From Actinomycetes bacterium (GTDB lineage: Bacteria; Actinomycetota; Coriobacteriia; WRKU01; WQUG01): a DNA stretch of 64,000 nt. The stretch spans positions 1 to 64,000 of the forward strand of contig JAISUC010000011.1 of the NCBI GenBank assembly GCA_031272275.1, read 5' to 3'. Positions 25,470-28,156 of the stretch are shown here, in pieces; position 1 is the first letter of the stretch; the number at the start of each line of letters is the position of its first letter. The notes below the pieces were generated by a model. It did not search any database, had not been told where the DNA came from, and saw nothing but the letters and a program-made list of their open reading frames with translations. Position numbers and translations under genes: made by a program.

Positions 25470-26798
25470 TTACACGTAACAGAACAGCTGCCGTATGGCG
25501 GCGTGGACGGTGGCGGTGCGGATAGCTTCGCGACCGCCATCGAAGCGATACTCCCGCGCATCCGTGCCGTCGGGCGTGGCGTGCGCAATCCAAACCGTGC
25601 CCACCGGGGCTTCGTCCGCATCAGTCGCGGGACCGGCAACGCCGCTCACGGCGATCGCGCAATCGGCTGCATACAGCGCCTGTGCACCCGCGGCCATCTG
25701 CGCGACGCAGGCACGCGACACCACACCGTGCCGGGCGATGGTATCGGCGTCAACGCCCAACACACGCGTCTTTTCCGCCGTCTGATAGGTGACGGCCGAG
25801 CCCGCAAACCACGCCGAGGAACCGGCCACCGACGTGCAGGCAGCCCCCAGCATGCCGCCGGTCAGCGACTCGGCACAGGCAAGGGTCCACCCCCGTGCGG
25901 TAAGCGCGGCTGCGAGGGCCTCGATGTCGCGCGTAAGGTCAAGGTCAAGAGCTGGATTGCCACGCCCGCCTACGGCGGGCTCGCAATGACGGTGGGGGGT
26001 GGCTACGGCGGGCTCGCAATGACGGTGGGGGGTGGCTTCGGCGGGCTCGCAATGACGGTGGGGGGTGGCTTCGGCGGGCTCGCAATGACGGTGGGGGGTG
26101 TCGTCTGCGGGTGGGTGGGTGTGGCAGCAGGGGGTTTGCGCATCCGGCGGTGCCGACCAGGGTCCACGCAGGACCGCACGGGCGTGCCGAAAATAATCCA
26201 CCATCGACACCACGGTCAATACCACCGCCACCGCCATCAAGGTCCAGGCAAACACATTCAGCACCACCGCAGGCCAGGTCGCGTGAATCCCCAGGACGGT
26301 CGTGTACCCCTTGACGATGAACGCCACGATCGCAATGTCCTGAAAGGTTGTTTTCAGCTTGCCCCAGATGCTCGCGGCGATAACCACGCCCTCGGCAGAC
26401 GCAATCATACGCAGCCCGCTGATCACAAACTCGCGCGCGATGATAATCAGTGCAATCCATCCCGGTAAGGTGCCTGTCTGCACCAGCGCAATCAGCGCGG
26501 CGGTAACCAACAGTTTATCCGCCAAAGGATCGATGAACTTGCCGAATGTCGAGACCTCGTCGCGCCTGCGCGCCAAGTATCCGTCCACGGCGTCGGTTGC
26601 GCTGATCAGAATGAACACGACGGCTGCCACCCAGGGACGCAGCTCGAACAATATGGTCGACTGGCGAAACATCAGCGGCCAGTTCGACAGCAATACGACC
26701 AAAAACACCGGGATCAGCAATATCCGCAGCAAGGTGACGGAGTTTGCCACCCCGACCCGTTCGATGGAACGCGGTATTCTGCTTTCCGTCTGACTCAC
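25470..26798 (-). CDS. pgsA: PgsA (CDP-DAG--glycerol-3-P phosphatidyltransferase) fused to CinA C-terminal (PncC-like amidase) domain
   Basis: N-term 'SATDAVDGYLARRRDEVSTFGKFIDPLADK' CDP-alcohol phosphatidyltransferase motif; C-term 'LACAESLTGGMLGAACTSVAGSSAWFAGSAVTYQTAEKTRVLGV' CinA; separated by PHRHCEPAEAT repeats. Confidence 0.88.
   Translation of the reverse strand: MSQTESRIPRSIERVGVANSVTLLRILLIPVFLVVLLSNWPLMFRQSTILFELRPWVAAVVFILISATDAVDGYLARRRDEVSTFGKFIDPLADKLLVTAALIALVQTGTLPGWIALIIIAREFVISGLRMIASAEGVVIAASIWGKLKTTFQDIAIVAFIVKGYTTVLGIHATWPAVVLNVFAWTLMAVAVVLTVVSMVDYFRHARAVLRGPWSAPPDAQTPCCHTHPPADDTPHRHCEPAEATPHRHCEPAEATPHRHCEPAVATPHRHCEPAVGGRGNPALDLDLTRDIEALAAALTARGWTLACAESLTGGMLGAACTSVAGSSAWFAGSAVTYQTAEKTRVLGVDADTIARHGVVSRACVAQMAAGAQALYAADCAIAVSGVAGPATDADEAPVGTVWIAHATPDGTDAREYRFDGGREAIRTATVHAAIRQLFCYV
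25954..26101. repeat. 33-bp tandem repeat array (about 4 units) derived from the ATTGC..GCAAT hairpin repeat, inside pgsA-cinA
   Basis: Units at ~25970, 26003, 26036, 26069: c(t/a)(t/a)cggcgggctcgcaatgacggtggggggtgg; first unit preceded by the complementary arm GGATTGCCACGCCCGCC. Confidence 0.93.
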
Positions 26799-28156
26799 AA
26801 TGCCTCTCCGAATGCGTCGTACAGGATGGTATCGATTATACGCACATCCACGGTCTGTCCGACCACATAATCTGACGGATCGCCCTGCAGACGCACGATT
26901 CCGTCAATTTCAGGCGCAGCATGGGGAGTGCGTCCCAAAGCACAGCCCTCTTCGGCGTCATATCCTTCAATCAGAACCGATACTGTGTCGCCAATGCTTT
27001 GTGCCGCACGTTCCCAGCCCAGCCGGTCGGCCGCGTCGCGCAGCTGCTGTGCACGACTGTTACGCAGTTCATCGGACAACTGCCCGGGCAGGGTTGCCGC
27101 AACGGTGCCGTCCTCGGGCGAATAGGCGAACACACCGACATAATCAAAGTCCACACGGCGCACCCAGTCGAGCAGCGCCGCGAATTCGTCTGCGGTCTCT
27201 GAGGGAAAACCGGCAATCAGCGTCGTGCGCACCACCAGCCCGGGCACGCATTCCCGAGCGTGCGCAATCAGGCGCGCGTATTCATCCCCGTCACCAACAC
27301 GGTGCATCAGGCGCAGGATGCGCCGCTCACTGTGTTGCAGGGGGATATCCAGATAGGGAACCACATGCTGTAGCCCTGCCATACAATCCAGCAATCGGTC
27401 GGTCAGACCCTCGGGCTGCAGGTACATAATACGCAGGCGCTGCACCCCGGGAATGCCGTCCAAGCGCCGCAGCAGATCCGGCAGCGTGGCATCCGGCGTT
27501 CCCGCAGGCAGGTCGCACCCGTAGCGCCCGGTATCCTGGGCAATCAGGATGAACTCGCGCACGCCCCGTTCGGCCAAAGCGCCGACCTCGGACACGATAT
27601 CGTCAGCCGGGCGCGAGCGATAGGGTCCGCGTATCCCGGGAATCGTGCAATACGAACAGCTGCGGTCGCAGCCGTCTGCGATTTTCACATAGGTGTAAGG
27701 GGCGTCAACCGTGCGCGTAGTCCCCTCACAGGCAGCTTCAGGTATTGCAGCGGGCGAAACAGCCGGCTGTCCTCCCTCGTCCAGTTCCGCCACGACCGAA
27801 ACGATGGATGCCTCGTCGGCAATGGGGACAAAGGCTGCAACCTCGGGGATTTCGGCTGCCAAATCATCCCCATAGCGGTTGACCATGCAGCCGGTGACCA
27901 CGACCTGACGCAGGCGGGTGGAGCGTTCATCCTCTCCCGTGTGCCCTGCAGTGTTTTCCGAATCCAGCAGGTCCAGGATGGTTTCGATGGACGTTTCGGT
28001 GGCGGTCCGGATGAAAGCGCAGGTGTTCACGACGACCAGGTCGGCGGCGTCGGTGTCGTCGGTCACGGTGTGTCCGGCGCTGACCAGGGCTGCGCGCATG
28101 GTATCGGTGTCGACTTCGTTTTTCGGGCAGCCGATGGTGGTAAATGCGATGTTCAC
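26795..28156 (-). CDS. rimO: Ribosomal protein uS12 methylthiotransferase RimO
   Basis: 'IAFTTIGCPKNEVDTDTM', 'KIADGCDRSCSYCTIPGIRGPYRSR', TRAM-like C-term. Confidence 0.95.
   Translation of the reverse strand: MNIAFTTIGCPKNEVDTDTMRAALVSAGHTVTDDTDAADLVVVNTCAFIRTATETSIETILDLLDSENTAGHTGEDERSTRLRQVVVTGCMVNRYGDDLAAEIPEVAAFVPIADEASIVSVVAELDEGGQPAVSPAAIPEAACEGTTRTVDAPYTYVKIADGCDRSCSYCTIPGIRGPYRSRPADDIVSEVGALAERGVREFILIAQDTGRYGCDLPAGTPDATLPDLLRRLDGIPGVQRLRIMYLQPEGLTDRLLDCMAGLQHVVPYLDIPLQHSERRILRLMHRVGDGDEYARLIAHARECVPGLVVRTTLIAGFPSETADEFAALLDWVRRVDFDYVGVFAYSPEDGTVAATLPGQLSDELRNSRAQQLRDAADRLGWERAAQSIGDTVSVLIEGYDAEEGCALGRTPHAAPEIDGIVRLQGDPSDYVVGQTVDVRIIDTILYDAFGEAL

Follow-up and report, generated by a model that had tools for sequence, protein, structure and literature searches.

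The locus described here raises the question of how two separate genes came to be read as one, and what part a dispersed repeat may have played in joining them. PgsA is a lipid-making membrane enzyme and CinA is a nucleotide-recycling enzyme. In an uncultivated bacterium of the Coriobacteriia, both are encoded in a single protein, connected by a linker that consists largely of a repeat. We analyzed the locus within a 64,000-nucleotide stretch of contig JAISUC010000011.1 (the window) and compared it with nine relatives from the same family and five further members of the order; the source genus is represented by one genome.

A fusion gene in a single frame

The pgsA-cinA fusion gene (25470..26798, minus strand) is an uninterrupted frame of 442 codons plus a stop. 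Its predicted product is 47.1 kDa, and the ~46 kDa given in the initial annotation is accordingly corrected to 47 kDa. The PgsA part (residues ~1-213, ending in GPW; 26159..26798, minus strand), delimited by TIGR00560/PF01066, by alignment and by the junction, is complete: PF01066 covers residues 17-196, TIGR00560 scores 156.9 bits (cut-off 109.1), and the CDP-alcohol phosphotransferase motif D..DG..AR...G...D...D is intact. The CinA part (PncC-type amidase, residues ~287-442; 25473..25940, minus strand), placed by domain matches and motifs, is a complete short form, with PF02464 at residues 293-438 (170.9 bits), TIGR00199 at 139.2 bits (cut-off 68.9), and both ESLTGG and TYQTAEK present. The proposal that PgsA, linker and CinA belong to one gene thus holds, with both domains full by profile match in one 442-codon frame. 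Directly upstream lies a rimO-like gene (26795..28156, minus strand); the rimO-pgsA order is conserved in nine of ten relatives checked, and in the tenth the contig stops at this point.

A linker made from a palindromic repeat

The linker (residues ~215-286, about 71 residues; 25941..26156, minus strand) has a predicted pLDDT below 50 and lies in a stretch, codons 200 to 316, where we found no in-frame ATG, GTG or TTG. Most of it is a 33-bp tandem array of 4.2 copies (25973..26111, minus strand), by far the strongest in the window (Tandem Repeats Finder: period 33, 96% matches, score 250). The copies stay in register, in agreement with the earlier suggestion that the linker grew in units of 11 codons. 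The array is laid out as three 5'-arm half units of the form CGTCATTGCGAGCCCGCCG(A/T)AGCCACCCCCCAC (25992..26090, minus strand) followed by a complete palindromic unit, CGTCATTGCGAGCCCGCCGTAGGCGGGCGTGGCAATCCA (25953..25991, minus strand), four 33-bp units in all; the complete unit has family members elsewhere. This bears out the description of the linker as a hairpin module plus partial 33-bp copies, and the 42-base module quoted there sits at 25954-25995. In the protein, PHRHCEPAEAT occurs twice, followed by PHRHCEPAVAT and then by the end variant PHRHCEPAVGGRGNPA. As the initial annotation suggested, the number of units may differ between strains.

On the 3' side of the complete unit is TTGACCTTGACCTT (25935..25948, minus strand). 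Because this flank also trails repeat copies at other places, the part derived from the element probably reaches as far as 25935 and would then supply the residues LDLDL. The first ~19 linker residues, ahead of the array, contain no recognisable repeat. His and Cys are abundant in the linker (10 and 6 of its 71 residues, respectively), and the predicted structure of its mRNA is not much more stable than that of shuffled sequences (z -1.24).

A dispersed CGTC-like repeat family

The repeat is far more abundant than expected by chance: CGTCATTGCGAGCC (at most 1 mismatch) occurs 108 times in the 1.77-Mb genome, versus once for a reversed control. This count, together with the Tandem Repeats Finder score of 250, rules out an origin of the array by chance or from low complexity. 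A coding minisatellite born inside the gene and unrelated to the dispersed repeat would explain the regularity at 33 bp, but the array unit corresponds to the 5' arm of a palindrome with more than 100 occurrences in the genome, and a complete palindrome closes the array; this explanation is already contradicted, and we give it next to no credence.

In the stretches of DNA fetched from this genome, the 12-base head (at most 1 mismatch) is found in 145 copies at ~86 places, nearly all of them intergenic or at gene starts. A complete copy has a CGTC head, an ATTGC...GCAAT stem, an inner G+C-rich stem whose sequence differs among copies while its complementarity is kept, and a CCA tail. The head CGTCATTGCGAG, including TGTC variants, runs through the 145 copies, and the pattern CGTCATTGCGAG-N(10-24)-GGCAATCCA has 86 exact matches in the genome and 0 in the reversed control. 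As read from the sequence, the copy in the window has a stem of 5 bp and then 7 bp, separated by an internal loop and closed by a loop of 3 bases. Neighbouring copies less than 150 bp apart are on the same strand in 40 cases, head-facing in 12 and tail-facing in 3. Its distribution across the class is patchy: 4 of 301 genomes carry the full pattern, with 86 matches here and 16, 6 and 3 in the others. An Rfam search gave no match above noise, and the repeat was not found printed in the literature in the forms searched.

Screening all copies by codon usage flagged five places as lying in strong reading frames. Only in pgsA-cinA does the repeat lie between two conserved domains. In the RCC1-type, lipoprotein and IspD-like frames (named by eye, not by search) it comes before or at a plausible start, and the fifth frame appears to be antisense. 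The initial annotation had called the repeat normally intergenic, and with one truly internal copy among ~86 dispersed places this description stands. A block of six copies in both orientations precedes the RCC1-like repeat protein frame (L195, 8323-10401), and the likely start of the lipoprotein-like frame (L198, 8123-8896), MCRPWQSTPIG..., lies inside a repeat copy. A second common sequence, TTTGACCTTGACCTTG, mostly continued by CTGAAAGATGATGCCAATAAAAAGCTT, is found just after several copies (five loci). Several contig ends of this genome fall in or near repeat copies (for example C9:81, C18:48409 and C22:214), so repeat clusters probably break the assembly.

The closest known group is the super-family of CGTC-tagged REPs (Di Nocera et al. 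2013, PMC3733652). As that paper describes them, these are high-copy, dispersed and mostly intergenic elements, at times found in genes. One end carries an unpaired tetranucleotide, CGTC or else TGTC or CCTC; the first two base pairs of the stem are A-T, and the tail is CCA. The four described families have stems of 8-9 bp and loops of 4-5 bp, and head-to-head dimers predominate, with head-to-tail dimers negligible. The repeat described here shares the CGTC end, the basal A-T pairs, the CCA tail, the high copy number and the mostly intergenic placement. Unlike those families, it has a longer stem interrupted by an internal loop and a mostly direct rather than head-to-head arrangement, and its host belongs to the Coriobacteriia ("Actinobacteria" is absent from the text of that paper, the species-list figure aside). 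Judged by sequence, it is a CGTC-like REP family outside the four described; we do not file it under any of them because its stem design and arrangement depart.

The genome encodes one RAYT-like gene (contig C14 of this genome, G000:C14:7579-8031; L157 1384-1839, minus strand), with an NF047646 score of 76.9 bits, just under the cut-off of 80. It has inverted hairpin cassettes on both sides, with GTAGCGCGCCACTCCGTGGCGC upstream, and resembles a REPtron or TIRtron. A REPtron would be recognised by copies of the repeat flanking the RAYT gene, and none were found in the RAYT loci of G000 and G008. Within the order, 2 of 15 genomes carry the repeat (at least 2 copies), and RAYT genes are found in just these two (p 0.0095); class-wide, RAYT-like genes are found in 142 of 301 genomes and in 3 of the 4 repeat carriers (p 0.27). 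Because there is no class-wide association and the repeat is absent around the RAYTs, we do not claim a RAYT as its mover.

Loss of the pgsA-cinA boundary

In four of the nine family relatives pgsA and cinA are adjacent and separate, and they are also separate in the five further members of the order. The initial annotation had asked whether relatives keep the two genes apart: all nine order relatives that have both do so, and within the order the boundary was lost solely in this lineage. The other five family relatives (draft genomes) gave no CinA match in the search, beside pgsA or elsewhere; they may lack cinA, and the gene may be dispensable in the family. Among family relatives pgsA ends in GPWN* or GPWS*. 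At seven of the nine order-relative junctions the cinA ATG, which is in a different frame from pgsA, lies inside GGNCCATGG, at the GPW codons of pgsA, with the pgsA stop no more than a few codons further on. The junction in the window reads GGACCCTGGTCG, with neither the pgsA stop nor the cinA ATG.

In a tree of both domains, this fusion is nested among members of f1, f2 and f3 with separate genes; on this phylogenetic placement, the fusion is derived. The Eggerthellaceae have PgsA-CinA fusions of their own (eight loci), whose linkers of 18-96 residues lack the repeat. They fall on another branch of the tree and apparently arose independently. The two domains stand in the same order and in one frame in both groups, unlike the linkers, which here come from the repeat and in the Eggerthellaceae are repeat-free, each with a separate origin. 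Since a repeat-free fusion arose independently, the repeat is not required for PgsA-CinA fusions, and since the Eggerthellaceae have an identical domain order with other linkers, the architecture is viable. A fusion without the repeat in relatives had been named as the finding that would count against a role of the repeat; such fusions do exist, but on the tree they represent a separate event.

We propose that, in this lineage, a CGTC-like REP copy with some of its flank inserted where pgsA meets cinA. Ancestrally, the two genes would have overlapped by a few bases that contained the stop of pgsA and the start of cinA; both signals would have been lost, bringing cinA in frame with pgsA. We infer both the order of events and the removal of the stop by the element itself, as opposed to its arrival in a fusion already formed. 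Tandem copies of the palindrome's 5' arm and C-rich spacer would then have built up, the hairpin probably giving rise to slippage or a switch of template. Selection on the frame presumably retained only a step that is a multiple of three, and the product would be one tethered protein that is made and active. Taken as a whole, we consider this course of events likely.

Alternatively, a deletion or stop loss could first have joined pgsA and cinA, with the repeat inserted later, in frame, in a free linker and expanded there. The repeat-free Eggerthellaceae fusions with their 18-96-residue linkers are consistent with such an order, as are the ~19 non-repeat residues ahead of the array and the view that intragenic REPs are tolerated in linkers (PMC3733652); close relatives show no intermediate that would favour either order. 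However, no repeat-free fusion is known in this order, and the one member with the fusion is also the one in which the repeat is most abundant. We regard a fusion that preceded the repeat as unlikely.

An assembly or sequencing artefact would mean that the true array has another length, with a stop or frameshift that splits two genes. The genome is a draft in 27 contigs, several of which end at or near repeat copies, but the array spans only 139 bp, its units are distinguishable by substitutions, the contig continues for 82.8 kb, and a frameshift would still not restore the missing cinA start near the junction. Such an error is very improbable.

Growth of the array

At other places in the genome, 5'-arm half units lie 32, 34 or 35 bp ahead of a same-strand copy; a step of 33 is found only in the pgsA-cinA array. 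No tandem 3'-arm orphans were found among the repeat copies. The simplest inference is that the hairpin caused slippage or a template switch from which the array grew, and that selection acted as a filter on the frame. As 33 is one of four common steps (32-35), the step itself is weak evidence for selection on the frame.

The predicted protein

In an AlphaFold2 model, PgsA helices extend to residue 210 (last helix 175-210), residues 212-284 have a pLDDT below 50, and the CinA fold begins at residue 282. The alignment behind this model had 14 rows, few of them covering CinA, and the pTM was 0.46; only the domain/linker pattern is used here. Based on this pattern, the product is most likely one protein in which membrane-embedded PgsA tethers CinA by a disordered linker of ~70 residues. 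The same predicted disorder would allow the linker to be cleaved, and CinA could be freed by proteolysis, by a non-standard start or by reinitiation, giving two proteins from one frame. Against internal initiation stand the absence of in-frame ATG, GTG and TTG noted above and the fact that an ATC, at codon 292, is the sole other candidate start in the stretch ahead of the CinA motif; we consider separate products quite unlikely.

In the tethered protein both halves probably retain activity, and the fusion itself is likely to be nearly neutral. A metal role for the His/Cys-rich linker is speculation. It is very doubtful that the repeat served as an evolutionary device by which the enzymes were fused, CinA was anchored at the membrane where phospholipids are made, and a His/Cys-rich linker of variable length came to tune the double enzyme, or regulate it by metal, between strains.

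Repeats in genes and the meaning of the fusion

Two papers provide precedents. Rickettsia palindromic elements (RPE; Ogata et al.) are palindromic repeats in frame within conserved proteins, and palindromic clusters in genes encode 43-82 residues in Thauera and R. conorii (per PMC3733652, PMC2229807). The repeat in pgsA-cinA is likewise read in frame in conserved proteins, but it sits at the join of two genes rather than interrupting one, and has grown into a regular 33-bp array. As in MITE/ORF fusions, a small mobile element gives coding sequence and joins frames; the examples considered from PMC2229807 either insert into one gene or give rise to new proteins, putatively of the membrane or exported, whereas here two conserved enzymes are linked. 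REP inserts in linkers are regarded as harmless in PMC3733652, and in Rickettsia a guanylate kinase carrying such an insert remained active with changed substrate affinity (PMC2229807). Our literature search found nothing on a pgsA-cinA fusion and nothing on a REP-made fusion of two genes. Intragenic REP insertion is already known, and the capture of a REP by a pair of genes, well documented here, extends it.

With a palindromic mobile repeat at the join of two conserved enzymes, and the ancestral junction still readable in relatives, the repeat is more than decoration. The locus also extends the CGTC-like REPs to a further host group and a further stem design. The same two genes were fused independently, without the repeat, elsewhere in the class, which suggests that cells at least tolerate, and may benefit from, a CinA tied to PgsA.
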